IMG/VR virus record: IMGVR_UViG_3300027977_001210
Location: 1-56,596 of that record
DNA length: 56,596 nucleotides
From: a virus
Reading direction: 5' to 3' (one strand)
Shown here: piece after piece, positions 12,615 to 49,640 of the stretch
Layout: every line of letters begins with the position of its first letter
Position numbering within the stretch: position 1 is the first letter of the stretch
Position numbers and translations under genes: made by a program
The notes under the pieces: generated by a model
What the model saw: only the letters and a program-made list of their open reading frames with translations
Told to the model about the DNA's origin: nothing
Databases searched by the model: none

Positions 12615-12620
12615 CTCTTG

Positions 12621-12626: not shown

Positions 12627-12715
12627 GTGCATAAAGCGAGTAAGTTTGACGACATGCAGAGTTTATAAAGCGGGATGAATGACGTAAAAGTCCGCTGTGC
12701 CTGTGTGTATGATTT

Positions 12716-18764: not shown

Positions 18765-18771
18765 TATTTAC
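18765..18771 (-). promoter_or_regulatory. Late-promoter-like GTAAATA abutting thyX
   Basis: Minus-strand GTAAATA ends 3 bases before the thyX ATG, and its TAA is also the stop codon of the upstream structural gene. The spacing would imply a leaderless transcript. Confidence 0.35.
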
Positions 18772-22841: not shown

Positions 22842-22843
22842 AA

Positions 22844-27031: not shown

Positions 27032-27035
27032 TAGA

Positions 27036-27042
27036 TATTTAT
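27036..27042 (-). promoter_or_regulatory. Late-promoter-like ATAAATA before the 27031 operon
   Basis: Minus-strand ATAAATA ends 4 bases before the ATG at 27031, overlapping the stop region of the amidinotransferase gene. Confidence 0.35.
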
Positions 27043-30773: not shown

Positions 30774-30777
30774 GTCT

Positions 30778-32770: not shown

Positions 32771-32774
32771 ATAG

Positions 32775-32781
32775 TATTTAT
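32775..32781 (-). promoter_or_regulatory. Late-promoter-like ATAAATACTAT before the 32770 gene
   Basis: Minus-strand ATAAATA followed by CTAT and then the ATG at 32770. The 11-base string closely matches the T4 late consensus TATAAATACTATT. Confidence 0.4.
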
Positions 32782-32795
32782 CGGCCCCATATGCG

Positions 32796-34649
32796 TTAAA
32801 ATAGGGTTCTTGATGCAATCAAAATATTGCCGTAGTAGTATTGGTATGTACCGTTTAAGTCATACAGTAGATCGCCAATATCTTTAAAGTTGTTGTATTT
32901 TATTTTAGAAAACAGTGATCTGCTTACGGTATTCATCCTATCTTCAGAGTGTATTAGTTTACTGTCCTGTTTACACAGTTTTTTATCAGCACCAACAGAC
33001 AGCAACCATTCGTTAACTATTGGATCTAAGTCTTCAAAATTCTTAAAATATTCTAAAATTAAATAAGCCCAGACCAAAATAGTATAGTTAGTATTGTTGT
33101 TCCATTGAATGCTAAGTTGTGTAGTGTTAGTTTCATCTTTTACAAATGCTGTTAGGTGATCGTCTAAATGCTGTAAGCTCTTACTTTGCAGTAATAACTT
33201 AGGGTAGCATTCATTGTAGAATTGCTTTAAGAATTCACCAAATGGTATACCTAGATCTTTAATAGTCTTTCTGTAGACTCCGCTTTGCTCAAAGAAAAAG
33301 TAAATGGCATAAATTGTCATCATATCTTTATAGTCGTTTCGAGAGTATGTTTTACTTTCTACAACGATCTCTGCGGGAATAGACCATGCATCATCACTAT
33401 AAGATTTCTTTGCAGTTTGTAATCCAAACTTATTTCTATACATATCGTCGTACGACTCTGCTTCTGGTAATAAATGCCATTCATATGCTCTAACAAGGAC
33501 ACCCTCAGAGTACGGCTTGTTAAACTCAGTGTACCAAATTTCAGTGGTCATACCAGGTAGCCCTAGTATAAGTTCTACAACAGCTTCATAGTGATAAGTT
33601 TGTCGTAAGTAGTTTGCAAGTTCCCAGTGTTCGTTATCTCTTAAATCTGTGCGTTTAATGTTGTCTAGTATTTGTGTGTTAAATGATTGCTGGCTAATTT
33701 TATAAACATACGATAAATTATTCTCAGCCTCAATTGTAAAAATACTTCGCAGGTATTCAAAATGTCTGTTAGTTTTTGCAAATCCACCGTATTGTATATT
33801 TGGAAATTCTTTACCAACATATGTTTTCTTCTTATCTGCAATGTATTGAATGATTTCTACATCGCGGTCGCCGTTAATGCCAAAGTTTGCATCGCATATA
33901 TAGATACTGGATACTGCCTGTGCCATTAATACATCCAAGTCTGTTCTAACACACTCGATGTCTTTCTTGATAACTTTAGTGCCAACACCACCTCCCCAGT
34001 CACAGAATGTACATTGATAAGGACACCCTCTTGTAGTTTCTAATTTACAATGAAGTGTAGCAGTTGAGTGAGCTTTGAATTTTTCTACATATTCTTTGAC
34101 AAACTCTGCTTGTTCTTTAAACGCACTGAAGTCCCATTTAAAGTCTAATTGATATGTTGCCTTAGGGCTCTGTAATTGTAGTGTACGTTTCTTATTAGGA
34201 TATACAATCTTTTCAACCTTGTTCCAGTCTATGCCAGACTCGGATAAGTTGTTAAGCATATCTGTAATAACAACCTCACCGTAGACTTCACTAGGTACAC
34301 TGGCATCAATAAATGTGTGTTTTTGAAACCAATCCTTACTATGTTTAAAATATTGGTGAGGGCCACCTGTTATAACAATACAGTTGGGCCATGTTTCTTT
34401 GACCCATTGGCATATACGCAAACTTTTTTCAAAGTTCCACACATATAAACTTACACCAAAGATATCGGGAGGATTGTTTGATATTTCTATTTTAGCCAAG
34501 TCTTCATCTAAGAACTCAGCAATGGGTAACACCCAATTATATTTCTCAGGATGCTGTCCGTACTTCTCGTAATATGTTTTTGCACTTGCCCATAATACTG
34601 GAATAAATGTGTCGCTGTCACTGAACGACAGTATATGTATATTTTTCAT
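32796..34649 (-). CDS. Cobalamin-binding-domain radical SAM enzyme
   Basis: A 617-residue paralogue of the gene at 25121. The N-terminal B12-binding-like part has 'PPDIFGVSLYVWNFEKSLRI' and 'CIVITGGPHQYF'. The radical SAM motif is 'CPYQCTFC' (C209, C213, C216), followed by 'DWGGGVGTK'. 'VYKISQQSFN' and 'VVELILGLPGMT' match the barrel strands. The C-terminal ~200 residues are unassigned. Having two such enzymes suggests at least two methylation or rearrangement steps in the pathway. Cobalamin would have to come from the host. Confidence 0.87.
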   Translation of the reverse strand: MKNIHILSFSDSDTFIPVLWASAKTYYEKYGQHPEKYNWVLPIAEFLDEDLAKIEISNNPPDIFGVSLYVWNFEKSLRICQWVKETWPNCIVITGGPHQYFKHSKDWFQKHTFIDASVPSEVYGEVVITDMLNNLSESGIDWNKVEKIVYPNKKRTLQLQSPKATYQLDFKWDFSAFKEQAEFVKEYVEKFKAHSTATLHCKLETTRGCPYQCTFCDWGGGVGTKVIKKDIECVRTDLDVLMAQAVSSIYICDANFGINGDRDVEIIQYIADKKKTYVGKEFPNIQYGGFAKTNRHFEYLRSIFTIEAENNLSYVYKISQQSFNTQILDNIKRTDLRDNEHWELANYLRQTYHYEAVVELILGLPGMTTEIWYTEFNKPYSEGVLVRAYEWHLLPEAESYDDMYRNKFGLQTAKKSYSDDAWSIPAEIVVESKTYSRNDYKDMMTIYAIYFFFEQSGVYRKTIKDLGIPFGEFLKQFYNECYPKLLLQSKSLQHLDDHLTAFVKDETNTTQLSIQWNNNTNYTILVWAYLILEYFKNFEDLDPIVNEWLLSVGADKKLCKQDSKLIHSEDRMNTVSRSLFSKIKYNNFKDIGDLLYDLNGTYQYYYGNILIASRTLF

Positions 34650-35146
34650 TCCTCATATTCTCTAACCTGTAAGATTATTCTAGGAGTTAGACTAATGTTT
34701 ACAGCACAGTGAACAATAGAGGCATCATATTCAAATACGTCACCTTTTTTGTAATTAGTCACAGTGTTGTCTCGATACATGAACACATGACCTACATTCC
34801 AGTCTTGAAAAGGCATCCAATAACTTTTTGCATTTTTTCTAGTTGCCATAGAAAGATCTCCGTGGATTGGAATAAATTGTCCAGGCATCATCTTAACAAT
34901 CCACCAATCCCAACTTTGAGGACTCCATGGGGCTTCTATGTTGAACGAACAATGTTCTTTATAAAATGCAGAAAAGAAATGATCGTTTCTGCTATATCCA
35001 GAGTTGAACCATTTTTTTTCGTCCTCATTAAGAATCACAGAAGGATCATTTGATAAATCTTTAGGAAGACTCCACCCAGAATTATTTAATATTTCTTGAA
35101 TCCACGAATCTTGTATCCAAGATGAAAAATTGCCTATATAGTTCAT
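34646..35146 (-). CDS. 2OG-Fe(II) oxygenase, short phage paralogue family
   Basis: A 166-residue paralogue starting at the ATG at 35146, which overlaps the upstream stop (TGATG). N-terminal 'MNYIGNFSSWIQDSWIQEIL'; core 'PIHGDLS' (H95, D97), 'DWNVGHVFMY', 'YKKGDVFEYDA', 'HCAVNIS' (H146) and 'PRIILQ' (R156). All ligands are present. It sits between a B12 radical SAM gene and another oxygenase, repeating the order seen near 28-30 kb. Confidence 0.85.
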   Translation of the reverse strand: MNYIGNFSSWIQDSWIQEILNNSGWSLPKDLSNDPSVILNEDEKKWFNSGYSRNDHFFSAFYKEHCSFNIEAPWSPQSWDWWIVKMMPGQFIPIHGDLSMATRKNAKSYWMPFQDWNVGHVFMYRDNTVTNYKKGDVFEYDASIVHCAVNISLTPRIILQVREYEE

Positions 35147-35733
35147 CAACCAATACCTCGATTAGGTCTCCAGGTAGTAATTTGTAGTGCTACTCTAGTT
35201 TGCATACCGGCGTTAGCAGCACCATGCAGTATGAACGGGTCAGTAAACTTATAAACATCTCCGGCTTTATATTTGATAATTGCGTCCTCTTCAGTCATCA
35301 AAACTTGTCCTGGTTCCCAGTCAGTCCATGCCATCCAATATTTGTATGTAGGGCACCCGACTGAATACGAATCTCTGTGCATAGGTGTAAATTTACCCGG
35401 TTGTAATTTAGTAATCCACCAAGCAAACGGCCCGTCGAATTCTAAGAATGGCGGACGATTTTCTGGTTTCATTATATTAAAAGATAGATCCGGAACATCA
35501 AACATTTCAAAGAAAAAGTTTCCGTCATAGTCATACGCTTCGTTCATTTGCTGCCAATCTTTTTGTTCTTCATCAAAACTAACTTTGTCAAACTTGCCCC
35601 GCAAAGATTTTTGCACCATTTCTTCATGCACTCTATAATCTTGTGGTATCATAGGTCCAATATTTGTTAGAACTTCTTCAAGCCATTCGGGCTTGATCCA
35701 TTCTGCATAATTACCCATATATGTTAAACTCAT
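35146..35733 (-). CDS. 2OG-Fe(II) oxygenase, short phage paralogue family
   Basis: A 195-residue member with an extra ~30-residue insertion before the core. 'YMGNYAEWIKPEWLEEVL' is the shared N-terminus. 'TPMHRDSYS' gives H119 and D121, 'DWEPGQVLM' and 'YKAGDVYKFTD' are the family strands, 'LHGAANAG' gives H170 and 'TRVALQ' gives R180. It overlaps its neighbours by 1 and 4 bases. Confidence 0.85.
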   Translation of the reverse strand: MSLTYMGNYAEWIKPEWLEEVLTNIGPMIPQDYRVHEEMVQKSLRGKFDKVSFDEEQKDWQQMNEAYDYDGNFFFEMFDVPDLSFNIMKPENRPPFLEFDGPFAWWITKLQPGKFTPMHRDSYSVGCPTYKYWMAWTDWEPGQVLMTEEDAIIKYKAGDVYKFTDPFILHGAANAGMQTRVALQITTWRPNRGIG

Positions 35734-36194
35734 ATTTTACCCTTTAAAATATTGTGAATTCTATTATAATTTTCTATTCTGTCAGTTATATCTTCTAATT
35801 CAGGATTAATACGATTTGATAAGTTTTTAAAATCGTAGTTGTCTGCTACAATGTTAAGATAATTAGTATTCCACAACCAACCTGCTGAATCAAGAGCACC
35901 TTCTAGTGTTAGACAATAGGCATTTATATCTTTCATTGGCATTTTAATAAATGCTGCAAATCGTCTTAACATAATATCATTCACCGGCGCTAATTTTTCA
36001 AGTTCTTTAAATCCGTTAGTTTTATATTCAAACTGATCAATAAATCCAGCTAGGCGTTGTTCCGACGACACCCTATACTTAGGAACAACATTATTAACAG
36101 CATCAAATAATACATCTACATCCCCGTCGTATAAACTAAGGCTGTTTGATAACTTGTCCTTTGTAAAATCAAATTCAAAATCAAACTTAAACAC
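35730..36194 (-). CDS. Degenerate GH19 lysozyme/chitinase-like protein
   Basis: A 154-residue protein from a GTG start. The N-terminus 'MFKFDFEFDFTKDKL' and 'RVSSEQRLAGFIDQ' resemble phage GH19 endolysins as I remember them. The C-terminal 'DSAGWLWNTNYLNIVADNYDFKNLSNRIN' matches the GH19 'WfWnt..LN..AD..df...t.rINGG' end. The catalytic 'HES' after the 'FIAQ'-type helix reads 'YKT' here (Y57-K58-T59), and RINGG is RINPE. The middle, where the substrate cleft would be, appears deleted relative to a normal domain. It probably cannot cut peptidoglycan and may be a repurposed binding protein. It is coupled by overlaps to an SGNH gene and an oxygenase. Confidence 0.6.
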   Translation of the reverse strand: MFKFDFEFDFTKDKLSNSLSLYDGDVDVLFDAVNNVVPKYRVSSEQRLAGFIDQFEYKTNGFKELEKLAPVNDIMLRRFAAFIKMPMKDINAYCLTLEGALDSAGWLWNTNYLNIVADNYDFKNLSNRINPELEDITDRIENYNRIHNILKGKI

Positions 36195-36963
36195 TTGTCA
36201 ACTCCTTGAACAGATAGTTGGCATATTGTTCGTGTGTTTGTAATGTAGGGTGTCCCCATAGTAAACTGTCACTGCCTTTAAAGTCATCTATTGTCTTGCT
36301 TCCTAAAAACAACTGGTTTTGCAATACTTTAAGTGTATCATTAAACATGTTGTTATATTCTTTCAGTTTGTATTCACTTGCTCGCATAGCAGGAACGACA
36401 CATAGGTTATACGCAGTTTTAAAATACCCAATGGACATTAGCACCATTAGGTCGTCCCATATAATTCTATCATCAGTAAACCATTTTAACATGGCTTTGT
36501 CTGTGTTGCAATCTATCACCGTAGATGCATTACCATTCTTTCCTACGCCAATCAGTCCCAGCATCGATGCTATTTGAAATGATGCAGGCTTGTCGTTAAA
36601 GAACACATTACGGTCGGGTTTGGTTTGACTAAAAATAACTAAATCTGTTTGAGTTAATTGTTCTTTATAATTAAGAAACTGCCATAACATCTTTTGCATT
36701 GAGTTTCCGCTTTCTGCAAAGTTAACACACTCTGCATTCATTAACATTGCCAGCTTTGCCGGCCAAGCAAGCGCATATTGTCTTTCGATTACACTAGTAT
36801 ATTGTTCCTGATAGATAACATTGTTTTCAATGGCGTTAAAGAAGTCTCTTGGGTCTGTATTGTTGCGAGTAGCAAGTAACTCAACAGCCAGTTCGTCATA
36901 TAGTAATTCTTCACCGGTCGCATAACTACATCCAAACACAACAATTCTTTTAATGCTGTTCAT
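36187..36963 (-). CDS. SGNH-like hydrolase
   Basis: A 258-residue protein from the ATG at 36963. 'RIVVFGCSYATGEEL' carries Ser13 in a GCS variant of GDS. 'CVNFAESGNSMQKML' resembles the block II Gly/Asn region, and a C-terminal 'WGHPTLQTHEQYA' gives the block V His pair. It is more distant from the 30072/31470 pair and nearer in style to the gene at 20078. Likely an esterase or acyltransferase; the substrate is unknown. It overlaps the GH19-like gene by 8 bases and the oxygenase upstream by 14. Confidence 0.6.
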   Translation of the reverse strand: MNSIKRIVVFGCSYATGEELLYDELAVELLATRNNTDPRDFFNAIENNVIYQEQYTSVIERQYALAWPAKLAMLMNAECVNFAESGNSMQKMLWQFLNYKEQLTQTDLVIFSQTKPDRNVFFNDKPASFQIASMLGLIGVGKNGNASTVIDCNTDKAMLKWFTDDRIIWDDLMVLMSIGYFKTAYNLCVVPAMRASEYKLKEYNNMFNDTLKVLQNQLFLGSKTIDDFKGSDSLLWGHPTLQTHEQYANYLFKELTSV

Positions 36964-37504
36964 CAAAAATAGTTACCTGGAAGGTTATACGAGTAGTAAG
37001 ACCAATGTTGGCCGCGCCATGAGTTCCAAAAGGATCTGTAAACTTGTAAGCATCTGCAGCCTTATAGGGAGCAATCATCTGATCTCCGTAAATTAAAACA
37101 TGACCATCTTGCCAATCTAGCCAACTCATCCAATAACGCTCGCAGTTGTTTTCCCACTTAGTTGCCTTGTCGCTGTGTACCGGCAATAGATTACCTGGAT
37201 GATATTTAAAAAGATTCCAATAGTATCCTTGTCCTTCCTTTAAATTTACAAATGGTGGCAATGGTATTTCAAAAGGAAAATTATCCTGATCGAATACATA
37301 ATATAACAATGAATTGTGTTTGTAGCCAGCTGCTTCGTATTTCTGTTGAAACTCACAGAACTCTGCACGTTCTCCTCGTTCAATCGCTCCCATCAGATCG
37401 TTTTGTTCAAATTCGTATTTAGGTTGGGGATTGCCGTCATTGGCCAAGACGTACTCTACCCATTCTGGTTTTAACCAATCTTTAAAATTTCCTATATATT
37501 TCAT
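36950..37504 (-). CDS. 2OG-Fe(II) oxygenase, short phage paralogue family
   Basis: A 184-residue paralogue and the first gene of the long minus-strand operon reading down to 32.8 kb. 'MKYIGNFKDWLKPEWVEYVL' nearly repeats the N-terminus of the gene at 28531. 'PVHSDKATKW' gives H110 and D112, 'DWQDGHVLIYGD' is a family strand, 'THGAANIG' gives H162 and 'TRITFQ' gives R172. An ATAAATA late element lies 34 bases upstream. Confidence 0.85.
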   Translation of the reverse strand: MKYIGNFKDWLKPEWVEYVLANDGNPQPKYEFEQNDLMGAIERGERAEFCEFQQKYEAAGYKHNSLLYYVFDQDNFPFEIPLPPFVNLKEGQGYYWNLFKYHPGNLLPVHSDKATKWENNCERYWMSWLDWQDGHVLIYGDQMIAPYKAADAYKFTDPFGTHGAANIGLTTRITFQVTIFDEQH

Positions 37505-37560: not shown

Positions 37561-38535
37561 ATGCAATTATTTCAAGATATTCCTTTCACTGATATAGTAA
37601 GATTTGGACAACGAACAATGTTGTCCAGACCTCTATTTTCAACGAGTTGGATACTTGGTAGATTTTGTAACTATAATTGTAGTTACTGTTGGCCATACGC
37701 TCGATCAGATAAAGTGGATCATCAAACATTAGAAGTTTATAAAAACACTGTCGATGAAATAAAACGTCAAGCTCGTGAAAATAATTTTACAGAATTTCAT
37801 TGGAGCTTCAGCGGTGGAGAGCCTACTGCTTATAAACAGTTAAATGATCTTGTTAAACATTTAGACGAATTAGAATCTAAGTATCAAAGCATACACATGA
37901 CCACTAATTTGAGTCCTGGTAGCAAGTGGTGGAACACTTGGTGTAAGAACACTGAGATGTTACAACGTAGAAGTATCACAGCCAGCTTTCATGATGAATT
38001 TGCCAAAGAGCAAGAGTTTGGTGACAAGTGTTTACAGTTACAGTATGAGCTAGTACATGTCACTATTAATCAAGTAATGGTACCTGAAAAATTTTATGAG
38101 CTGTACGAGCGTATGGAACGATTCCACAAACGTGGAATCAATGTAACACTTAAACCCCAAAGCGATCCTACAGCTAGTTCGATTGTTGGTGGATACACTG
38201 AAGATATGATTAACAAAATGCAAACGGGATTTCCACAACGTGCCAATGGCGAAGAACTATACCAAATAGCGTTATACGAGGCAGATGGTACCGAACATCT
38301 GTTTGATCAAGCAGAACGCTTTAACGCTTTTGGATTTAACAAATTTAAAGATTGGACTTGCAATGCAGGATACCAAAGTGTTATAATAAGAGGTAATGAG
38401 ATTAAAAGAAGTTATAGCTGTCACGATGTGCCGCTAGGCACCTTGGATAAGTTTGAATTATTTACAGCGCCTATAAGATGTGTTACTTCGAGTTGTGTTA
38501 GTTCGGCAGATAGCAAAATACCCAAATGCAAATAG
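37561..38535 (+). CDS. Radical SAM enzyme, SPASM-like C-terminus (type A)
   Basis: A 324-residue protein. The cluster motif is 'CNYNCSYC' (C36, C40, C43), then 'WSFSGGEPT' (the GGE SAM-binding strand). The C-terminal region is Cys-rich with 'DWTCNAGYQSVIIRGNEI', a 'YSC' and a closing 'CVTSSC...C'. It should hold auxiliary Fe-S clusters as in SPASM proteins. Two paralogues (42783, 43671) share this C-terminal pattern. SPASM-type enzymes modify peptides, alcohols or sugars. It is the first gene of a plus-strand run of six. Confidence 0.85.
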   Translation: MQLFQDIPFTDIVRFGQRTMLSRPLFSTSWILGRFCNYNCSYCWPYARSDKVDHQTLEVYKNTVDEIKRQARENNFTEFHWSFSGGEPTAYKQLNDLVKHLDELESKYQSIHMTTNLSPGSKWWNTWCKNTEMLQRRSITASFHDEFAKEQEFGDKCLQLQYELVHVTINQVMVPEKFYELYERMERFHKRGINVTLKPQSDPTASSIVGGYTEDMINKMQTGFPQRANGEELYQIALYEADGTEHLFDQAERFNAFGFNKFKDWTCNAGYQSVIIRGNEIKRSYSCHDVPLGTLDKFELFTAPIRCVTSSCVSSADSKIPKCK

Positions 38536-39125
38536 ACACTGAACATCTGCATCACTGGATGCAGGCCATTCGGCAAAGTCCAGATCCTATACGGACTATG
38601 GATGCCTTTTGGAGTGGCCAACTTAAAAGCAAGGAATGGTTGATTACAAATCTACGCAAGAATATTAATAAGTTTGTCAGTATAGACATTCACGGAGGGT
38701 GGGTTGGAGTATTAGCTAGTATGCTATTTCAAACTGATATGCCTATCAAGAATATTCGTAGCGTCGATGTCGATCCTAGTTGCGAGTTTATTGCGACTAA
38801 CATGAATAAAATAGAAGAAATGGTTGGAAGGTTTCGTGCTGTCACAGCAGACATGTGTGAAATACGCAGTGATGCAGATGTCATTATCAATACTAGTTGT
38901 GAACATATCACCCAGGATCAATATGATCTATGGTTAAGCGGAATGCCTCACAACAGTATGTTGGTATTACAAAGCAACGATTATGATATTCCCGAACATG
39001 TTCGCACAGCAAGAACGTTAGACGAATTTAAAAAACAATGTGGTTTAGATCATGTATTGTTTGCCGGCGAACTAGAACTGCCTTTATACAAAAGGTTTAT
39101 GATTATTGGATCAGTCAATGGATAA
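38526..39125 (+). CDS. Methyltransferase-like Rossmann protein
   Basis: A 199-residue protein. 'FVSIDIHGGWVGVLASMLF' (45-63) resembles a divergent motif I. 'IRSVDVDPSCEFIATNMN' is motif II with an acidic residue, and 'DADVIINTSCEHI' is motif IV. Motif I lacks the usual GxGxG, so SAM binding is likely but not certain. It overlaps the preceding radical SAM gene by 10 bases and the next by 8. Confidence 0.6.
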   Translation: MQIDTEHLHHWMQAIRQSPDPIRTMDAFWSGQLKSKEWLITNLRKNINKFVSIDIHGGWVGVLASMLFQTDMPIKNIRSVDVDPSCEFIATNMNKIEEMVGRFRAVTADMCEIRSDADVIINTSCEHITQDQYDLWLSGMPHNSMLVLQSNDYDIPEHVRTARTLDEFKKQCGLDHVLFAGELELPLYKRFMIIGSVNG

Positions 39126-40413
39126 CATTTCTAAATATAAAACATTTTGCATAGTGCCATTTAACATGATGTATAGTCTTAACAACGGCGATTACCGGGC
39201 TTGTTGTTTTACTGAACCAGGTGTCCCTAGCGACGACAATGTTACTGAGCCAGTCAATGCGTTTAAAACTCCAATCGAAAAAGTTTGGAATAACAAATAT
39301 TACAAACAGTTAAGGTATGATCTATCCACAGGCACAAAAAATAAAACCTGTGCAACCTGTTGGAAAAAAGAAGAAAACAACGAGTTTTCCCATAGACAAA
39401 AATATAACAGCGATGCAGGAATAACTGATGCACAGATCGAAACTCTATCTGCTGTTGCAATTTCAAACAACGGACATTATTCTATCTTACCTAAAGTGAT
39501 TCAAATAAAAACAGGGAATCTTTGTAATTTAAAATGTATAATGTGCAACCAAGCGTCAAGCAGTTTGATAGAGGAAGAAGTCATACAATGGAAAGAACAG
39601 AAAATTCAGTTGCCCCAATACATTGAGTTTATAGATCAATATGAAGAAAAGTGGAGGGGATCTATTACTGACCAAGACGCAGAACACCTTTATCTTAATT
39701 ATGAAAAAGCAATAATAGATTGTGATGAACTACAGTTAGTCGGTGGTGAACCATTAGTAAGCCCTGTTACACACTATATTATCAATCAGCTAATCAGTAA
39801 AAACATAGCTCAAGATAAGCGTCTCTATTTTATTACTAATTTAACGTCGTTGAATAAAAAATTAATTGAGAAATTAGAAAAATTTAAATTCACTACAATA
39901 TCAGTGAGTTGGGATCATGTTGATAAGAAAAAATTTAATTTTATTCGATACCCTGCCAACTATCAGCATTTTAGAAAAAATTTCGATAAGCTCAGTAATT
40001 CTTTTAACATACATTTAAAACTAAGTCCCACATTTAGTATATTCAATATATTTGATATAGAACAAATATTCGACACCTTTAAAGAAATTTCATATACACA
40101 AAAAGATTTTACCATAAATCCTAACTGGGTGGAACAACCTAAACATTTTTGTATACGATATTTAGAACCCGAACAGAAACATCAAATAGCAGACTACATA
40201 GAAGCGTATATTGAAAAAAATAAAAATGAAAAAATGTTTTTAGAAAATCCTCCTTTCTTTGAAATGTTTAAGTCGATTAGAAACATGTTGTTTAAAGAAG
40301 TTTTTGATTTTGAAGAAGTTACGAAAGAAAGAACTCGTGTGCTTAAATTATATGACGACACACGAAACACTGATTATAAATCTCTTTTTCCTTACATCAA
40401 GGATTACAAGTGA
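39118..40413 (+). CDS. Twitch-domain radical SAM protein (type B)
   Basis: A 431-residue protein from the ATG at 39118. It begins with a SPASM/twitch-like Cys set: C11 in 'TFCIVPF', C29-C30 in 'DYRACC', and C78/C81 in 'TCATCW'. The radical SAM motif 'CNLKCIMC' (C136, C140, C143) follows, then 'QLVGGEPLVS'. This reversed order, auxiliary cysteines first, is characteristic of twitch-domain radical SAM proteins found in marine phages. Substrate unknown. It is the first of three type B paralogues; each is adjacent to another radical SAM gene. Confidence 0.83.
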   Translation: MDNISKYKTFCIVPFNMMYSLNNGDYRACCFTEPGVPSDDNVTEPVNAFKTPIEKVWNNKYYKQLRYDLSTGTKNKTCATCWKKEENNEFSHRQKYNSDAGITDAQIETLSAVAISNNGHYSILPKVIQIKTGNLCNLKCIMCNQASSSLIEEEVIQWKEQKIQLPQYIEFIDQYEEKWRGSITDQDAEHLYLNYEKAIIDCDELQLVGGEPLVSPVTHYIINQLISKNIAQDKRLYFITNLTSLNKKLIEKLEKFKFTTISVSWDHVDKKKFNFIRYPANYQHFRKNFDKLSNSFNIHLKLSPTFSIFNIFDIEQIFDTFKEISYTQKDFTINPNWVEQPKHFCIRYLEPEQKHQIADYIEAYIEKNKNEKMFLENPPFFEMFKSIRNMLFKEVFDFEEVTKERTRVLKLYDDTRNTDYKSLFPYIKDYK

Positions 40414-41495
40414 TGTTTACATTTGATCAGTTGACCCAGATTCATTTAGAAATATCTAATAATTGTCAAGCCAGTTGCCCCATGTGCTCGCGTAACATTA
40501 ATGGCGGAGGCATTAACCCTTTAATCGTTAATCGTGATTGGACTTTAGAACAGTTTAAAATAATCATGAATCCAGAGGTGTTAACACAAATCGATGGATT
40601 TTATCTGTGCGGAACATTCGGCGATCCTATGATGAATAATGACCTGCTTGATATGTGTAGGTATGCCAAAGAGATTAAAACAGATATTCGAATCCATATG
40701 CATACTAATGGGGGTGCTCGTAAAGCAGAGTGGTGGGCTGAATTAGCAAAAGTGCTGCCAGCAGGTCACATGGTAACATTTGGGTTAGACGGTCTTGCCG
40801 ACACAAATCATTTATACCGAGTTGGCACTAATTTTGATACTATTATTCGTAACGCTAAATCATTTATTGCAGCAGGCGGTCAAGCAGAGTGGGCGTTTAT
40901 TAAATTTAAACACAATGAACATCAAGTAGAAGAAGCACAACAACTAGCTAAAGATCTTGGATTTGTGAGATTCAATTTAAAGGCGAGTTCGAGATTTATA
41001 ATAGAACCACGTGTAAAAGTAGTTAATCGCCAAGGAGAGATCACGCATTATATCGAGCCATCCACTGATACTACCATGAAGTTTATCGATAAAAAAGCTA
41101 TTGATAATTATAAACAGATTGTTAAAGATGCTGTGATAGAATGTCAGGTGTTAAAAACCAAAGAAGTTTACATAGATGCATATGGAGATCTATATGCTTG
41201 TTGTTGGTTAGCTAATACTCCATACACTCATATTTCAGAAGATGCATCTTTTGAAGTAAGAAAAAAAATTAAAGAGCAACACGAAAACATGGTGGCGCAG
41301 TTAGGCGAAGTAAACATATTAAAACGTAGCATAAAAGACATTATTGACAGTCCTGAATATCAAAATATCTGGACCGACATGTGGTCAGGAAAAAATAAAA
41401 ATATCATATGTGCAAGAAGTTGTGGTAAACATCCGGAAACAGAAATAAGCAAGTGTTCAGATCAATTTTTAGAGACTATCAGTTTAGATGAATAA
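40413..41495 (+). CDS. Radical SAM enzyme with SPASM-like C-terminus (type C)
   Basis: A 360-residue protein from the ATG of a TGATG junction. The motif 'CQASCPMC' (C18, C22, C25) lies very near the N-terminus. 'FYLCGTFGDPMM' replaces the GGE strand, and 'MHTNGGARKAEWW' follows. The C-terminus has 'YIDAYGDLYACCWLAN' and 'CARSCGKHPETEISKC', a SPASM-like Cys set. The missing GGE Glu is common in some SPASM enzymes acting on tRNA or small molecules. It lies between two type B genes. Confidence 0.82.
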   Translation: MFTFDQLTQIHLEISNNCQASCPMCSRNINGGGINPLIVNRDWTLEQFKIIMNPEVLTQIDGFYLCGTFGDPMMNNDLLDMCRYAKEIKTDIRIHMHTNGGARKAEWWAELAKVLPAGHMVTFGLDGLADTNHLYRVGTNFDTIIRNAKSFIAAGGQAEWAFIKFKHNEHQVEEAQQLAKDLGFVRFNLKASSRFIIEPRVKVVNRQGEITHYIEPSTDTTMKFIDKKAIDNYKQIVKDAVIECQVLKTKEVYIDAYGDLYACCWLANTPYTHISEDASFEVRKKIKEQHENMVAQLGEVNILKRSIKDIIDSPEYQNIWTDMWSGKNKNIICARSCGKHPETEISKCSDQFLETISLDE

Positions 41496-42786
41496 GTTTT
41501 GTCCTTTGCCCTGGATACATTTAGCAACTAGACCCAACGGCGATGTTAGGGTATGTTGCACAGCCAATGCATCTGGTGCCGGCGTTGTAGATTCTAAAGA
41601 ATCTGGGCTTGTCACACAAGATGGGCATATCATGAATCTACGAGATTATTCTATAGAAGAAATATGGAATTCCTCTCAGATGAAGGCAACTCGTTTACAA
41701 ATGATGAACGACGAGACTCCTGCGAGTTGCACTAAATGTTTTGAAGAAGAATCTAAAGGTATTACCAGTAAGAGACAGTGGGAAACTGTAGTCTGGAAGG
41801 AACGGTTGGATATCAACGCCATTGTTGCTACTACTGAACAGGACGGATCCTTGCCAGTTAGTATTCCATATTTTGATTTACGATTAGGGAATTTATGTCA
41901 ACTTAAATGTATTATGTGTAGTCCTCACGATAGCAGTTCTTGGATTAAAGAATGGAAGTTACAATATCCTAAATATAAAACTCTAGAGTTGATAAAAGAT
42001 CAAATATGGGACGACAGAAATAGAGATTATACTTGGTATCAAAACAACAAATTTCTCAATGAAATGAAGCAACAAGCAACGTTCATTAAAGAATTATATT
42101 TTGCAGGCGGCGAACCGTTGTTGATCCCAGAGCACTATAAAATATTAGAATTCATGGTTGAAACAGGTAATGCAAAAAATTGTGTACTACGATACAACAG
42201 CAATGGATTAGAATTGCCTGAAAGACTTTTTGAATTATGGTCACACTTTAAGCAAGTCAAATTCAATTTCAGTATAGATGCATTAGAAGAACGTAACGAT
42301 TATATTCGTTATCCTAGTAAATGGGCCAACGTAGTTTCAAATCTAGAACGATTGGACGATACTCCCGATAATATTGTTGTTAATATTGCCTGTGCCGTAC
42401 AACTAATGAATGTGTTGACTATTCCAGACTTGGTGAATTGGAAAACTAGTATGAATTTTAAAAAGATAAACTTGCCACCATACGGCGCCGGTTTAATCGG
42501 AACACATCTAGTGTATTTGCCAAGCTATTTAAATGTAAGAGTATTACCTAAACATCTAAAGGATCAAGTGAAAACTCGCATTGATCGTTTCTGTGACAGC
42601 AATATGACCAGCATCGAATTTATGAATAATCCTTATGGTTTAACAAGATGGAAGGGATTGATAAATTATATGGAATCTGAGGATTGGTCTAATAAGATTC
42701 CAACCTTGGTTGATTATCTAACCACCACCGACAGTGTTCGTGGCACATGCTATACTGATGTATTCCCAGAACTACAAAATTTATGA
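41488..42786 (+). CDS. Twitch-domain radical SAM protein (type B)
   Basis: A 432-residue paralogue of the gene at 39118. N-terminal cysteines are C5 ('KFCPLPWIHL'), C23-C24 ('VRVCC') and C81/C84 ('SCTKCF'). The radical SAM motif is 'CQLKCIMC' (C137, C141, C144), then 'FAGGEPLLIPEHYKIL'. 'FNFSIDALEERNDYIRYP' matches the corresponding segment of the other two type B proteins. It overlaps both neighbours by 4-8 bases, pairing it with the type A gene downstream. Confidence 0.84.
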   Translation: MNKFCPLPWIHLATRPNGDVRVCCTANASGAGVVDSKESGLVTQDGHIMNLRDYSIEEIWNSSQMKATRLQMMNDETPASCTKCFEEESKGITSKRQWETVVWKERLDINAIVATTEQDGSLPVSIPYFDLRLGNLCQLKCIMCSPHDSSSWIKEWKLQYPKYKTLELIKDQIWDDRNRDYTWYQNNKFLNEMKQQATFIKELYFAGGEPLLIPEHYKILEFMVETGNAKNCVLRYNSNGLELPERLFELWSHFKQVKFNFSIDALEERNDYIRYPSKWANVVSNLERLDDTPDNIVVNIACAVQLMNVLTIPDLVNWKTSMNFKKINLPPYGAGLIGTHLVYLPSYLNVRVLPKHLKDQVKTRIDRFCDSNMTSIEFMNNPYGLTRWKGLINYMESEDWSNKIPTLVDYLTTTDSVRGTCYTDVFPELQNL

Positions 42787-43709
42787 TTCCGATTAAGATT
42801 ATATCAACTCAAGACGAGAATCTATTACAGATTCGATTCTTTCCTACCGACATATGTAATTTTAATTGTTCTTATTGCTGGCCAGGCACACACGAGGGGA
42901 AATTTAGATACCCTAGAGATCTAGACTCCATACTAGAAAATTTTAGAAATGTGTTTGATCAATACAAACAGGCAGGAAAAACAAAATTCCATTTAACTAT
43001 ATCCGGTGGTGGAGAACCCACATTATGGCCGAAATTAGAAAACTTCTGTAAACAATTAAAAGAAACGCACGATGTTTTTATCACACTGGTCTCTAACGGG
43101 TCTAGAACGTTGGAATGGTGGAAAAACAATTATCTGTATTTTGACGACGTCACATTAAGTTTTCATAATGAATATGCTGACCTCGAACATCACTGTGCTG
43201 TAGCTGATTTTCTATATGAGAAAGAACTCAAAGTCACAACGCTTGTTTTAATGGATTTTAAAAATTGGGATAGGTGCGTTGATGCCGTGAATGTTATGTT
43301 GACCAGTAAGTATCCTTGGATAATACAAACTAAAGAAATTGTTGATGCTCCGGGTTGTGGAGTTGATTGCTATAACTCAGAACAGATAGCCTACCTAGAA
43401 AGCAGTATAAAACGTATTCCGTCCAGTGATAGATTGTTGAAACACATTGATGATTTTAAATTACATCAGAGCGTTATATTATTTGACGACAATACAGCTA
43501 AGGTTGCAAAACCCCATACAATCATACTTAACAATTGGAATAAGTTTAAAGGATGGAATTGTATGCTAGGAGTTGAATCTATAGTGATAAATTGGGACGG
43601 TACTGTTAAAGGATCGTGTGGAGTTGACCTTAATGGGATGAATCCTGTGATATGCCCGAAGAATGATTGTTCATGTCAGCCCGACACCCACATCTCTAAA
43701 TTTTGTTAA
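42783..43709 (+). CDS. Radical SAM enzyme, SPASM-like C-terminus (type A)
   Basis: A 308-residue paralogue of the genes at 37561 and 43671. The motif is 'CNFNCSYC' (C25, C29, C32), followed by 'TISGGGEPTLW' and 'LVSNGSRTLEWW'. The C-terminus has 'GWNCMLGVESIVINWDGTV' and ends 'CPKNDCSCQPDTHISKFC', a candidate auxiliary-cluster set. It overlaps the convergent paralogue by 39 bases at the 3' end, so the two C-termini are encoded on opposite strands of the same DNA. Confidence 0.85.
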   Translation: MIPIKIISTQDENLLQIRFFPTDICNFNCSYCWPGTHEGKFRYPRDLDSILENFRNVFDQYKQAGKTKFHLTISGGGEPTLWPKLENFCKQLKETHDVFITLVSNGSRTLEWWKNNYLYFDDVTLSFHNEYADLEHHCAVADFLYEKELKVTTLVLMDFKNWDRCVDAVNVMLTSKYPWIIQTKEIVDAPGCGVDCYNSEQIAYLESSIKRIPSSDRLLKHIDDFKLHQSVILFDDNTAKVAKPHTIILNNWNKFKGWNCMLGVESIVINWDGTVKGSCGVDLNGMNPVICPKNDCSCQPDTHISKFC

Positions 43710-44582
43710 AGGAATATCCGCGGCACAGGTACAGTTATCTCTTGTACAGACTATCGGACCTTTCGGCATTAAAAATGTTCCGTTATAGATATTTCCTAAA
43801 CTACCACCGACACGACAAGTAGCACGATGTACTTCGCCGTCCCAGTTAATCATTAGACTCTCAATACCAGCATTGCACGACCACCCCTTAAATTGATTCA
43901 TGTGTGTTTTAATTACATCATTGGCATGAATAATTTGAGAATCGTCTATTCTACAGTTAGGTTTAACAGTAGCATCACGTGCAATGATCCATTCTAAGTC
44001 TTTACCATCATAGCGCATGTCGTCGAACACATTATGATCTCCCTCAGTCCATCGGATTCGACGAATGGCATATTTGATTCCAATCTCATCGAACTTTTTA
44101 ACAACAACTTTTACATTATGTATATACTTGTGGTGGGCCATAACATTAACAAAGAAGTCTTGTTCTGTGCTGTCATAGTATTTTAAAATAGTATCAAATA
44201 TCCTAGTCCAGTCTTGTTCAAAATGTAAACTAAACACAAGATGATTGAAATACATTTCGTTATCTAAATACCAACGATATCCTCGAGTACCGTTGGTAGT
44301 TAAATTAATCCAAAATATATCTTTACGTTTAAAGTAATCAAGCAGATCTTGTATATCGGGATGAACACAAGGTTCGCCACCCGTTAAACTTATACGCAAT
44401 GGTTTTCCTAGTTCACAAAGTTTGTCCACGGTTGATTCTAATATATTAATATCTGTGTGAGGACTATAGTTGTCGTGGATCACTGCTGGACAATAACTAC
44501 AATCGTAGTTGCATCTCTTTCCTAGATTCCATTCAACCTTGAGTTGATCTTGATGAGGCCAAGCAGAAGTTATCTTATACAT
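43671..44582 (-). CDS. Radical SAM enzyme, SPASM-like C-terminus (type A)
   Basis: A 303-residue protein. The ATG at 44582 is preferred over the TTG at 44591 because it gives the 8-base overlap used throughout the island. The motif is 'CNYDCSYC' (C24, C28, C31). 'ISLTGGEPCVHPD' and 'LTTNGTRGYRWY' follow. The C-terminus has 'GWSCNAGIESLMINWDGEV' and 'CTRDNCTCAADIPLTKF'. The close family match to the convergent gene at 42783 indicates duplication. It is translated after the type B gene at 44575. Confidence 0.85.
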   Translation of the reverse strand: MYKITSAWPHQDQLKVEWNLGKRCNYDCSYCPAVIHDNYSPHTDINILESTVDKLCELGKPLRISLTGGEPCVHPDIQDLLDYFKRKDIFWINLTTNGTRGYRWYLDNEMYFNHLVFSLHFEQDWTRIFDTILKYYDSTEQDFFVNVMAHHKYIHNVKVVVKKFDEIGIKYAIRRIRWTEGDHNVFDDMRYDGKDLEWIIARDATVKPNCRIDDSQIIHANDVIKTHMNQFKGWSCNAGIESLMINWDGEVHRATCRVGGSLGNIYNGTFLMPKGPIVCTRDNCTCAADIPLTKFRDVGVGLT

Positions 44583-45837
44583 AAGGCACAAACTCTGGAG
44601 TTATTTTTTCAAAACATTGATTACGAGTAGCATCTAGTTTGTGATTAAATTCTATGCACTCTTGCCATTTATCACTTTGATCATTAGAATTAAGATAGTT
44701 TATGACTCCGGTAATTTGACCTCTGGTCAAATCAAGCAACATGGGATGTTTTTCCACTAATTTAAAATTAGCTAATTTATCTTGTACATTTAGTAAACGT
44801 GTAATTGCAACATTTTTTAAAGGGCCTGGCAATACCTGTGCTGATAAAACATTAGGATAGTTAACCATGTTGGTGTAAAACACAATGCCAAGATCGTTTA
44901 AGAACAATTCTATCATTTTGTCAAGTATAAGAACATTGCTAACTTGCACAGCAACAGCACCTACAATTCTGCTCACATTGGGGATGGTTTGTATCTGGTT
45001 AATATTATTAACAAGTTCTGACCAACTGGCGTTTCCCCGGACGTACTCGTAGCTATCACCTATGCCATCAATACTTACATTGACTGCTACTGATTTAAAC
45101 TTAGGCCAATATTCCCATATGGTGCGATTGCTCTTGCCTAACATAGTCAAGTTAGTGGCATACTTAATTTCAATTTGATCTCCATAAGGAGCAAGCATAT
45201 CTAAAATTTTATAATGTGTTGGATCCATTAACGGTTCACCACCAGCAAACTCCACACGTCTGAAGTACGGCAGTAGTTTTTCAAAGCTAGTCCACCAATT
45301 GTCGGTATCTACGAAACTGTCAAGAAACGGCTTGTTCTTGAGATTTAAGTCTATGACCTTTTGTACTAGGAAGTTATCTTCTTTTTTATAATGTTCTTCT
45401 ACTTCTTGCCAATCATTCCATGACGTACTATCCATAGGATTACACATTCGGCATTTGAGATTACATAAGTTATTCATCTTAATTTCTATAGTAGGAATCT
45501 CAAAAGGCATTGTATAGTCTTTACGCAGTGTTGATACAGCATTGGGATACAAATTAATACGTGCCTCTGGAATCACACCTGCAATATGTCGCTGCCGCAG
45601 ACTTTCTACACCTTGATCTTCTAGATTAAAGCAAGGAGCACATTCTGCAGGACGTTCATTGTTTAATACCTGTTTACGTATCTGTTGCATGACATTGTTA
45701 TTCCAAATCTCTTCTAATGTTTGATCTTGAATAAATCCAACAGGATGGCTTCGACAGCAGACTTTAACAGCACCGTCTTCTCTAGTTGCTAGTCCGGTGA
45801 ACGGATGCATACAAAATGTTTTACTTTGATTGTTCAA
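44575..45837 (-). CDS. Twitch-domain radical SAM protein (type B)
   Basis: Third type B paralogue. The frame extends to an ATG at 45888 inside the QueC-like gene. A TTG at 45837, preceded by AAAGAGAG, gives a start that matches the lengths of its paralogues (420 residues); the choice is tentative. Cysteines: C9 ('KTFCMHPFTGL'), C27-C28 ('VKVCC'), C66/C69 ('ECAPCF'), then 'CNLKCRMC' (C125, C129, C132) and 'EFAGGEPLMDPTHYKIL'. 'AVNVSIDGIGDSYEYVRG' matches the family. Confidence 0.82.
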   Translation of the reverse strand: MNNQSKTFCMHPFTGLATREDGAVKVCCRSHPVGFIQDQTLEEIWNNNVMQQIRKQVLNNERPAECAPCFNLEDQGVESLRQRHIAGVIPEARINLYPNAVSTLRKDYTMPFEIPTIEIKMNNLCNLKCRMCNPMDSTSWNDWQEVEEHYKKEDNFLVQKVIDLNLKNKPFLDSFVDTDNWWTSFEKLLPYFRRVEFAGGEPLMDPTHYKILDMLAPYGDQIEIKYATNLTMLGKSNRTIWEYWPKFKSVAVNVSIDGIGDSYEYVRGNASWSELVNNINQIQTIPNVSRIVGAVAVQVSNVLILDKMIELFLNDLGIVFYTNMVNYPNVLSAQVLPGPLKNVAITRLLNVQDKLANFKLVEKHPMLLDLTRGQITGVINYLNSNDQSDKWQECIEFNHKLDATRNQCFEKITPEFVPYV

Positions 45838-46555
45838 TTGCCCACTCTCTTTCTTTGCACCAAAAACATTTGCCGCATGTTGGAACATGCTGTCCAGGTT
45901 TATATGTTGTATAATCTATCCCGTCAAACTCGCCTTCACAACTGCGAGTTATTTCAAACAACTCTTGTATATTTAAACGCTGATATTGTTTAACTATCCA
46001 TTTCTTTTCTACGAATCTAAAAGGGTGACTCACTAAAACACCCATGTGTGTCATTAGTTCTAAATGTTTGTTTTTGTCTGTAGGTTCGAGATCTCTTTCA
46101 ACCATGCCCGTAAATGCATCAGTTCTTGGATTCCTAGTTACTGCATTGTAATATGCTTTTACTTCATGTGTGTGGCAGACAAATTCTGCGTAGGCACGCT
46201 GTTGTGCGTTATCCCCACTGACTTTTTTTCCGTATTCATCTGTTATACTAGGCCCCATATTTCCGTATTCAACATCTGGTGCTATAAAATTTGTGTGTCT
46301 AACCAGTTTAAGATTAGGAAATTTCATAGTCAACCAATCGAATACTCTCATACTATCATGACTTTGCCATGGTCGAGTTTTCCACATTCTAGTATGACTA
46401 ATTATGTGAACTGCCATTTTGGAATGTGCATGACTGCAAAGCAAATATGCCAGCAAGGCACTGTCTGCTCCACCGCTTAGACCAATAGCAATGCTGTTCC
46501 ACGTTTTATCAAACGGTAAGATAACCCCATCGATGTTGTGTAAATTATAACTCAT
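45821..46555 (-). CDS. QueC/ExsB-like PP-loop ATPase
   Basis: A 244-residue N-type ATP pyrophosphatase. The PP-loop 'IGLSGGADSALLAYLL' (24-39) binds ATP. Near the C-terminus, 'SCEGEFDG' and 'TCGKCFWCKERE' provide four Cys resembling the zinc site of QueC. QueC converts 7-carboxy-deazaguanine to preQ0. This copy lacks some usual QueC stretches, so an amide- or nitrile-forming role on another substrate is equally possible. The ATG at 46555 overlaps the upstream stop (ATGA). Its neighbours are radical SAM genes; queD is 33 kb away. Confidence 0.72.
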   Translation of the reverse strand: MSYNLHNIDGVILPFDKTWNSIAIGLSGGADSALLAYLLCSHAHSKMAVHIISHTRMWKTRPWQSHDSMRVFDWLTMKFPNLKLVRHTNFIAPDVEYGNMGPSITDEYGKKVSGDNAQQRAYAEFVCHTHEVKAYYNAVTRNPRTDAFTGMVERDLEPTDKNKHLELMTHMGVLVSHPFRFVEKKWIVKQYQRLNIQELFEITRSCEGEFDGIDYTTYKPGQHVPTCGKCFWCKEREWAIEQSK

Positions 46556-47760
46556 AGCCAATCTCTAGAATGCCATGTTGGTTTTTGTAATGTATTAATC
46601 TCTACAGAAGTTATATCATTATACAAGGACATGTTTGCAAATCCAGTGCAGGCCCGCAATGAAAAATTTATCACTGCGTTTGAAAATTTATTCTTGATAT
46701 TTTTAATCATTTCATTTTCTTTATATAATCGATGATCTAAACTATAGAAAAAACTAGTTCCTTCGTAGGCATATATATTGGACAAATTTATCAAAGTTGG
46801 CAAGGTTAAATTTAAATTATCAAAATAGTATTCGTCAGTTAGCAGGTCTATTTTAATAAAATCGTAAGTGACGTTGTCAAGCAAAGGAGCATGCGATCTC
46901 CAGTAGTCTAATGCTTGTTGATTGTAGTCGTACATTATTACTTTAACTGGTTTAGTTTTGCTTATTACATTAACCCACCAATCACCGCTAGCCGGCACAA
47001 CACACTGTTCAAATTCTCCTTGATCAAAATTCATCTTTTCTGTATTGGCTGTATGAATGAATTCGTTGGAACAAAAATGAAATCTTTTATATGCCCACTG
47101 AATGTGATTTAAAAATTCTCTTTGATTTTCTGGATAGTAATGTTTTTTATTTTCTCGAACAGTATCATCAAAAATAATCACAGGTAATTGATTGTCAAAC
47201 GATTCTTTTAATAAGTTCCAACCGTGACATTTATGATTATAAGTTACAAGATTTGTCCCACCATTAACCCATATAGGAGTATAATGGTCATGTATATTTT
47301 CTTTACTACGATGAGGAGCATATTGTTGATGGCCGGCTCCTAATTCTTGTTTGCCTACTACTGGATAATTTAATTTTTTAAATATATTTAAATTTACAAA
47401 ATAACATTGGTGGTGGAGTTCATAATATGCATCTCCTCTATCTAAGATATGCCCTGCTAAAAATGTATCAGTTTTTGATAGCTCTTCTACAGCATTATAA
47501 AATGCCTGTCCGTTTATAAATTCTGTTCCGGTTGAAAATACCACGGCTGATTTATACCCGTAATCTACAGCTGCTCGTAATAATATATCCTCATCCTGAC
47601 CTTGGATAATGTCGTAGCCCTTAGAAAATGTATTTGATATTGTAAAATCGGAAATATTTTTGACAAGTTCACTAGCCCATGAACTAGGATAGGTATGTGT
47701 GTTGTCTACAAAACAGAAAACAATTGGGTTTTTAAATTGTTGAAATTTTACCACGTTCAT
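46552..47760 (-). CDS. Two-part protein, unknown (402 aa)
   Basis: A 402-residue protein. Residues ~1-230 contain 'GQDEDILLRAAVDYGYKSAVVFSTG' and 'LAGHILDRGDAYYELHHQCYFVNLNIF', which look like a nucleotide-sugar or GT-A-type fold. Residues ~250-402 contain 'CVVPASGDWWVNVISKTKPVKVIMYDYNQQAL', which resembles a Rossmann methyltransferase-like half. No decisive catalytic motif is present. It could be a fused glycosyltransferase/methyltransferase-like protein, but this is speculative. It overlaps the oxygenase upstream by 29 bases. Confidence 0.55.
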   Translation of the reverse strand: MNVVKFQQFKNPIVFCFVDNTHTYPSSWASELVKNISDFTISNTFSKGYDIIQGQDEDILLRAAVDYGYKSAVVFSTGTEFINGQAFYNAVEELSKTDTFLAGHILDRGDAYYELHHQCYFVNLNIFKKLNYPVVGKQELGAGHQQYAPHRSKENIHDHYTPIWVNGGTNLVTYNHKCHGWNLLKESFDNQLPVIIFDDTVRENKKHYYPENQREFLNHIQWAYKRFHFCSNEFIHTANTEKMNFDQGEFEQCVVPASGDWWVNVISKTKPVKVIMYDYNQQALDYWRSHAPLLDNVTYDFIKIDLLTDEYYFDNLNLTLPTLINLSNIYAYEGTSFFYSLDHRLYKENEMIKNIKNKFSNAVINFSLRACTGFANMSLYNDITSVEINTLQKPTWHSRDWL

Positions 47761-48432: not shown

Positions 48433-49098
48433 ATGCTATCCAAGACAAATTACACAGTTGATACATCGTTATTTCGAGAGGCTTGTGACCAGTTACCAAG
48501 TCAAGATATGAAGACCACTATAAACTGCCCAACCGGAAACTTCTTTTATGATACATGGGAATTGAAAGAAGAATTCAAAGGCACCGTTTGGGAAACTTTA
48601 TATAATTCACTGCCTATAACTAAAGGAGAAGCAAGAATCATTATTTTAGATCCAGCCCATTGTTATCAAACTCATGCAGATATCGATGATCGATACCATC
48701 TTAACATACTAGGTGAAGCATGCTATCTTATGGACTTAGTCAAAGAGCAAATGTGTCTTTTAGAACAAGACGGTGTTTGGTATGATATGGATGCAGGACT
48801 ACTGCACACTGCTGCTAATTTTGGCAGACGTACTAGAGTACAATTAGTAGTTAGACATTTACTAAAAAAGAATGAACTACTAGATCCGGTAGAGATAACA
48901 TTGTCTTCAACTGTAGCTAACACCGACGATACTAGGTTTATATTTGATAATACGTTGAGCTCGTGGCTTAACAAAGCAAATAAGTTAGGCTATATAAGCA
49001 ATTTTTCATATTCTCCAATGGTAGTAAATTTTAATATAGAAAAAAATAAACTAGATATGTTTAAAAGTATTTTGCCAGTCGAATTTAAACTAATATGA
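48433..49098 (+). CDS. 2OG-Fe(II) oxygenase
   Basis: A 221-residue protein. 'CYQTHADIDDRYHLNI' gives H81 and D83, 'AGLLHTAANFG' gives H125 and 'RRTRVQLVV' gives R135. A ~75-residue C-terminal extension ('DTRFIFDNTLSSWLNKANKLG' onward) is not part of the core and is unassigned. The start is directly after a late-like element, and the stop overlaps the next oxygenase by 4 bases. Confidence 0.8.
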   Translation: MLSKTNYTVDTSLFREACDQLPSQDMKTTINCPTGNFFYDTWELKEEFKGTVWETLYNSLPITKGEARIIILDPAHCYQTHADIDDRYHLNILGEACYLMDLVKEQMCLLEQDGVWYDMDAGLLHTAANFGRRTRVQLVVRHLLKKNELLDPVEITLSSTVANTDDTRFIFDNTLSSWLNKANKLGYISNFSYSPMVVNFNIEKNKLDMFKSILPVEFKLI

Positions 49099-49640
49099 AA
49101 ATTCATATATCTACACTCGGTAAAGAACTGTGTGAAAGTTTAATTAACGAACTTAGTACTCATACGGTTGACCCCAGCCACGGGCACATGGAACTGTCTA
49201 AAAACAATCCATACTATAACGAATATCTTAATCAGACCGAGATGTTAAAATCTGCAGGATATGATGAGCACACAGTCGAATATCGCCACTACCAATCGGG
49301 AGTTCACTTTCATAAAAATTACGAACGTGTTATTAGTGCGGTAGTTAATGCTAAACCGCTAATGTGCTGGGTCAGTGAAATCCGTCCAGGCAAATGCACA
49401 CCGTGGCATTGGGATATTAATCCTTGGGAAAAAGAACACGAACAACTAGGCACGCTTGTGAGATATTTTTGTTTTCTAAGTAGACCATCAGCAGGACATG
49501 TATTTGTCACTGCCGACGATGCATACTACATGGAACAGCAAGGTAGCATATATCAATACGCTGATTTACATGCTTGGCATGCAGGTTCTAATGTAGGATT
49601 AGCACCTAAGTTTTTATTAACTTTTACTGGCTATAAGTAA
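49095..49640 (+). CDS. 2OG-Fe(II) oxygenase-like, Arg-to-Lys variant
   Basis: A 181-residue relative of the short oxygenase family. 'TPWHWDINPWEKEH' gives H105 and D107, 'SAGHVFVTAD' and 'YQYADLHAWHAGSNVG' give the family strands and H162. The position normally holding the 2OG-binding Arg reads Lys172 in 'LAPKFLLTF', so cosubstrate binding may be altered. It ends in a 24-base convergent overlap with the next minus-strand gene. Confidence 0.78.
   Translation: MKIHISTLGKELCESLINELSTHTVDPSHGHMELSKNNPYYNEYLNQTEMLKSAGYDEHTVEYRHYQSGVHFHKNYERVISAVVNAKPLMCWVSEIRPGKCTPWHWDINPWEKEHEQLGTLVRYFCFLSRPSAGHVFVTADDAYYMEQQGSIYQYADLHAWHAGSNVGLAPKFLLTFTGYK

Follow-up and report, generated by a model that had tools for sequence, protein, structure and literature searches.

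The viral sequence IMGVR_UViG_3300027977_001210, a 56.6-kb IMG/VR virus fragment which was analysed over its full length (56,596 nucleotides, referred to below as the window), contains a group of genes for radical S-adenosylmethionine (rSAM) proteins, two types of which, A and B, stand in a mirror-like arrangement. On the plus strand lie A1 (37561–38535), M (38526–39125), B1 (39106–40413), C (40410–41495), B2 (41488–42786) and A2 (42783–43709), and on the minus strand A3 (43671–44591), B3 (44575–45888) and PP (45821–46561); the true start of B3 is probably nearer to 45825 than to 45888. All these reading frames are intact, four of them in the order B2>A2>|<A3<B3, the members of each tandem gene pair overlap by 4–17 nt, and A2 and A3 meet tail to tail with an overlap of exactly 39 nt (43671–43709). 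The B-A|A-B symmetry with its 39-base overlap, as described in an original prediction made from the sequence, was thus borne out. The third A/B pair which had also been proposed exists in so far as A1 and B1 are both present, but it is really A1-M-B1, with M intervening and the order reversed; besides, a fourth rSAM gene, C, is located between B1 and B2. A search for a terminator at the A2|A3 junction yielded none, the region holding fewer terminator matches than expected, and matches to the T4 late promoter TATAAATA were rarer than chance. To judge from other loci, two gene modules, each conserved in its own right, probably converge and meet here, within a hypervariable rSAM island of large tailed phages.

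Each of the six A and B proteins has a CX3CX2C motif and scored above the cut-off for PF04055 (5e-13 for A1), which places them all in the radical SAM superfamily. B1, B2 and B3 passed the cut-off (170 bits) of NF033640 N_Twi_rSAM (NCBIfam "twitch domain-containing radical SAM protein") with 259, 408 and 329 bits, respectively, and covered model positions 1/2–397, in agreement with their earlier designation as twitch proteins. This family resembles B1–B3 in its N-terminal twitch; it has no assigned reaction, and A1, A2 and A3 fall outside it, with 17–34 bits over the rSAM core only. The auxiliary domain precedes the rSAM core in B and follows it in A, where a C-terminal motif W-C..G...C...C....C is present, with C239, C259, C282 and C287 invariant in 15 sequences. 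Pfam recognizes SPASM in the N-terminal part of B and returned no SPASM score for A; the label "SPASM-like", which had been given to type A, is nevertheless fair because of the four invariant C-terminal cysteines. By its cysteine motif and the modelled fold after the core, the A type qualifies as a SPASM/twitch rSAM protein, and binding of a cluster is predicted.

The AlphaFold2 model of A3 (predicted local distance difference test, pLDDT, 86.6) had a SPASM/twitch rSAM fold, which matched CteB, BlsE, anSME, SuiB, PqqE and viperin-like enzymes at template modelling (TM) scores of about 0.5, with E 5e-9 for CteB. The model of B2 (pLDDT 79.6, low at the cluster loop) gave weak matches to SkfB, which was on top, viperin and MoaA. 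Comparison of the C-terminal domain of A with the N-terminal twitch of B by HHalign (probability 5%, E 0.008) was at most suggestive of homology. The SPASM/twitch enzymes CteB, anSME, SuiB, PqqE, SkfB, SpeY, BtrN and MoaA likewise combine a core with a cysteine-rich auxiliary domain; the proteins of the window differ from them by identities of 14–17%, by the lack of any substrate-specific family above cut-off, and by the N-terminal position of the auxiliary domain in B. Among the other products, C is an rSAM protein with a C-terminal SPASM domain (PF04055 and PF13186), PP is a QueC/PP-loop-like ATPase (PF06508, 6e-5), and M, for which no family match was obtained in Pfam or PDB searches, is possibly Rossmann/methyltransferase-like, as judged from its motifs.

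Gene order was compared in about 240 viral loci (designated by L numbers), which were metagenomic and had been sampled by A1, A2, A3, B1 and B2 queries; gene classes were assigned by best BLAST match with identity thresholds. In 74 distinct loci with at least 5.5 kb of sequence downstream of A1, this gene was followed by M in 71, by C in 62, by B2 in 59 and by all three in 53, while B1 was found there in one. C was the 5' neighbour of B2 in 80/135 loci. A forward module A1-M-C-B2, with A1 as the most conserved framework gene, is opposed by a convergent module PP-B3-A3, in which B3 was the 5' neighbour of A3 in 62 of 86 loci and PP that of B3 in 40 of 78. B2 and A3 were convergent in 81 of the 88 loci holding both; recurring over independent loci, the arrangement B2>..|A3<B3< exceeds chance. 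The slot between B2 and A3 was empty in 12 loci, about one gene wide in 41 and wider in 28, and an A2-like gene was the 3' neighbour of B2 in 57/120. Since A2 is cargo between two framework arms, the B-A|A-B mirror is to be read as B2-[A2 cargo]|A3-B3.

The cargo between framework genes comprised A2-like and other A-type rSAM genes, oxygenase-like, SGNH-like and amidinotransferase genes and genes of no known kind; the A2 slot, too, was occupied by different genes in other loci. The exchanges were precise to the gene. Among close relatives, one locus (L009) lacks B1 exactly between M and C (window 39109|40414, with 82–87% identity on both sides), another (L010) carries an additional A-like gene where A1 and M overlap, and in a third (L011) an SGNH-like gene is inserted into the A2|A3 seam, so that the counterparts of window positions 43701 and 43696 are 588 nt apart; in L008, A3 is separated from B3 by 1.2 kb. 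The seams of the cassettes coincide with the start/stop overlaps of a few bases. It would appear that single-gene cassettes (A2, B1, oxygenases, SGNH hydrolases, amidinotransferase and more rSAMs) come and go at the borders between genes, and this exchange could serve as a natural record of interchangeable tailoring enzymes. Seven small oxygenase-like paralogues with conserved H-x-D-like motifs, mostly 23–41% identical, are located at 28531–30133, 34646–35733, 36950–37504 and 49095–49640; the two which were tested (28531 and 49095) had no Pfam match.

Exchangeable regions of this kind, rich in rSAM genes, are already known (PMC2853527; PMC7029224; PMC5332604). The virulent Campylobacter phages CP220 and CPt10 possess 11–12 rSAM genes; as here, they contain a swappable central cluster, with 10–12 coding sequences including five rSAMs and a putative glycine amidinotransferase, but a conserved framework A1-M-C-B2|A3-B3-PP has not been reported for them (PMC2853527). 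A search with A3 (tblastn) against Campylobacter phages gave a single weak, partial match of 29%. The host recognition cluster of pelagimyophages and cyanomyophages is likewise a hypervariable island among T4-like tail-fibre genes, in which rSAM gene cassettes vary between close genomes (PMC7029224); its diagnostic flanks VrlC and gp14 were not identified in the window, and the framework genes, their fixed orientation and orthologous bacterial clusters are resolved here in addition. A T4-like TARA genome has 12 rSAM genes (PMC5332604). No close relatives were found among sequenced phages. Of 12 large relatives (117–364 kb), six contained the T4-type gp23 capsid protein (PF07068) and none the PF11649 neck protein, which was equally missing from all controls; each had 6–21 matches to the N_Twi model, some of which were confined to the shared rSAM core. 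Phage regions of this type have been on record since 2010, but offered no way into their function. Within the literature searched, the division into framework and cargo appears to be new, as does the bacterial A1-C-B2 cluster described below; together they reduce the 6–21 rSAM matches per phage to a defined unit of three or four genes, which could be expressed and assayed.

Relatives of the framework genes occur in bacteria of the class Bdellovibrionia, of which 144 genomes, largely metagenome-assembled, were scanned. A 936-kb chromosome contig carries an rSAM cluster with relatives of A1 (51%), C and B2 (46%) beside SerS- and MurA-like genes. Homologues of A1 (48–57%) were present in 15 of the 144 genomes, orthologues of B2 (at least 61% identity to the bacterial query) in 13, all of them with A1, and orthologues of C (at least 48%) in 15, of which 14 had A1. 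The co-occurrence of the three genes was supported by Fisher's test (p ~1e-16, shared ancestry being uncorrected). In 10 of 12 chromosomal loci A1, C and B2 were found within 20 kb, at a G+C content (GC) of 0.30–0.52, and some clusters contained homologues of M (33–39%). In the trees, phage A1 formed a single clade among the bacterial A1 sequences, and the bacterial B2 sequences formed a single clade next to phage B2b. Co-occurrence, clustering and trees thus identify C and B2, and not B1, as the conserved partners of A1. Tentatively, A1-C-B2(-M) might be regarded as an undescribed three-rSAM pathway, native to the Bdellovibrionia class and captured by large phages, in which it would have become the constant backbone of an island for combinatorial tailoring; by swapping single-gene cassettes at start/stop overlaps, each phage would make its own product variant. 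This scheme is considered doubtful. A recurrent glycosyltransferase-like protein was observed by the rSAM clusters of bacteria and of a phage-like contig (L316:6935–7624, L317:3796–5438, L302:13211–13918, L307:1301–2002 and L252:7031–7954).

The genes which surround the locus code for an aminotransferase, oxygenases of the TauD and Asp/Asn-hydroxylase types, B12-rSAM proteins, an amidinotransferase and a fatty-acid desaturase; this neighbourhood is a repertoire of tailoring enzymes. Most likely, the locus represents a tailoring pathway with several rSAM enzymes, situated in a hypervariable island of the phage. The framework rSAMs would work jointly on a single substrate in sequential radical steps, each presumably with its own auxiliary Fe-S domain, and the product could be decorated differently in every phage by the cargo enzymes; the substrate might perhaps be a cell-surface glycan or a secondary-metabolite-like molecule which alters the infected cell. 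Several points weigh against this interpretation. The class-wide statistic for co-occurrence in bacteria ignores phylogeny, and the frequencies of gene arrangements are biased because the loci were sampled by A and B queries; furthermore, the adjacency of A3-B3 (72%) and B2-A2-like genes (48%) could reflect a physical partnership of loose specificity.

A more specific possibility, which has some merit but falls short of being probable, is that the island makes or alters a sugar, an aminocyclitol or a surface glycan, and changes the surface of the infected cell (superinfection exclusion). The window contains a phage-encoded 3-deoxy-8-phosphooctulonate synthase (KdsA, 11093–11938; 410 bits, above the NCBIfam cut-off) of the 3-deoxy-D-manno-octulosonate (Kdo) pathway of lipopolysaccharide, a glycosyltransferase (phrog_1962), SGNH-like genes and an amidinotransferase (27039–28124), of which HsvA, StrB and SxtG are the closest solved relatives; the island is bracketed by fibre genes, bacterial B2 is adjoined by glycosyltransferase-like genes, and a change of the cell surface has been proposed for the same kind of region (PMC7029224). 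This support is indirect, however, KdsA and the glycosyltransferase being located outside the rSAM block, and the bacterial neighbour matches a glycosyltransferase weakly (E 0.003).

Alternatively, the framework rSAMs could be maturases of a peptide or protein, for example a phage fibre or a host protein, working with Asp/Asn-hydroxylase-like and B12-rSAM neighbours by a proteusin-like logic. The peptide-acting enzymes CteB, anSME, SuiB and PqqE among the best folds for A3, the top match of B2 to SkfB, and neighbours with Asp_Arg_Hydrox and with likeness to the B12-rSAM KedN5 and to methylases of ribosomally synthesized and post-translationally modified peptides speak for it. Yet the likeness of the folds is at the superfamily level only, and MoaA, viperin, BlsE and DesII, with nucleotide or sugar substrates, match comparably. 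A gene for a precursor peptide was not seen in the tightly packed operons, where overlaps of a few nucleotides leave no room, no dedicated search for small open reading frames (ORFs) having been made. This explanation is considered doubtful.

It had been proposed that the symmetry arose by inverted duplication of a two-gene cassette. As a recent event, such a duplication is absent at this locus. Identity is 27% for A2/A3, 31% for B2/B3 and 24–26% for the remaining pairs within each type, compared with 86–93% to other contigs, and duplication was not detectable in the DNA, where only short matches of 71–85% were found, starting at conserved motifs. Moreover, every copy belongs to a clade from multiple phages: in trees of 58 B and 103 A representatives, B1, B2, B3, A1 and A3 each fell into their own supported clade across many contigs, and A2 was placed inside a large, very diverse A2-like clade. 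A1 had more than 598 viral matches (about 600 or more), 80 of them at 82% identity or higher, B2 had 201, and A3 had relatives at 59–92% in more than 80 viral contigs; A2 had only four close viral relatives, and B1 was found in only one viral locus in a direct scan.

An older origin, with one B-A cassette duplicated and inverted in an early ancestor and diverging into B2-A2-like and A3-B3, seems unlikely. Parallel duplication of A and B, for which trees had been suggested as the test, was not rejected by the approximately unbiased (AU) test, either for A2-like+A3 monophyly (p 0.72; the constrained tree was 10.6 log-likelihood units higher) or for B2+B3 (p 0.25), and no pairs within the window are more alike than B2-B3 and A2-A3. 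But neither grouping was recovered in the free trees, where A1 was closer to A3 than to A2; B1+B2 was allowed equally (p 0.25), numerous further deep A and B lineages exist, and bacterial B2 is accompanied by A1 and C, not by A2-like genes. A more recent duplication, in direct orientation, is present elsewhere in the window: two SGNH-like proteins encoded on either side of a methyltransferase gene, at 30072–30773 and 31470–32147, share 60% identity.

From the "constant pairing" of A and B it had been suggested that they act together. Adjacency is indeed common in other phages, but not constant: A3 and B3 may be parted by other genes, the A2 slot may hold a different gene, A2-like genes are also found beside A1, C or M, and B1 is nearly absent elsewhere. 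Correlations of distances over the 33 loci with all four genes (eight pairs, not corrected for phage ancestry) were low for the neighbours B2-A2-like (r 0.06, p 0.16) and A3-B3 (r 0.15); the non-adjacent pairs B2-B3 and A2-B3 gave 0.28 and 0.37, the latter value being left uninterpreted. This lack of co-divergence between neighbours argues against tight cognate A-B pairs. A2 genes with 50–55% identity were found together with B2 of only 42–44%, and A2 of 53% without any B2 (L019, L171, L184). That A and B are cognate subunits, i.e., obligate heterodimers with one substrate per pair, is very unlikely. Adjacency with start/stop overlaps is frequent (B3-A3 62/86, B2-A2-like 57/120), but adjacent pairs do not co-diverge, A2-like genes are inserted elsewhere without a B, B2 directly abuts A3 with no A2 in 12 loci, and other genes often part A3 from B3. 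What remains of the joint action is of another form, namely the conserved set A1-C-B2(-M).

A different domain order was encountered in some A-type proteins of Bdellovibrionia-class genomes. In the ORF L305:17561–18595, residues 30–105 match residues 225–300 of A3 (45%, 3e-21) and residues 145–342 match residues 19–203 (26%, 9e-15); as judged from these alignments, it is a circular permutation of an A-type rSAM, with the twitch before the core. The same permuted order was found in six further bacterial ORFs (L331, L332, L333, L334, L335, L336). In L334 and L335 the permuted gene directly adjoins an A gene of normal order, as would be the case if the permutation had arisen by tandem duplication. 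In L337 (795–1897) and L338 (575–1617) the protein is split, core and twitch being encoded by overlapping but separate ORFs; the core came first in all 313 viral A ORFs carrying both motifs. No paper on a permuted A-type rSAM was found in a limited literature search. The permuted and split enzymes offer naturally occurring cases in which to examine whether the rSAM core and the auxiliary Fe-S domain need a covalent link to each other.

Several other genes of the window may be mentioned. In other loci the amidinotransferase gene occurs together with the gene at 28121–28534, and the rSAM clusters of Campylobacter phages likewise come with amidinotransferases. An rSAM protein encoded at 23961–25121 has a zinc ribbon of the HMPTM type (PF23545), otherwise known from a pterin methyltransferase-like family. 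Further genes are QueD-like (12090–12632), SAM-decarboxylase-like (19710–20081) and for a fatty-acid desaturase (52984–53778). About 18 kb of extra cargo (19710–37504) separates A1 from a structural-side gene at 18768–19304, which directly adjoins A1 in 30 of 83 other loci. The GC is 0.35–0.38 in the island (20000–54400) and 0.41–0.45 in most of the flanking DNA on the fibre/structural side.

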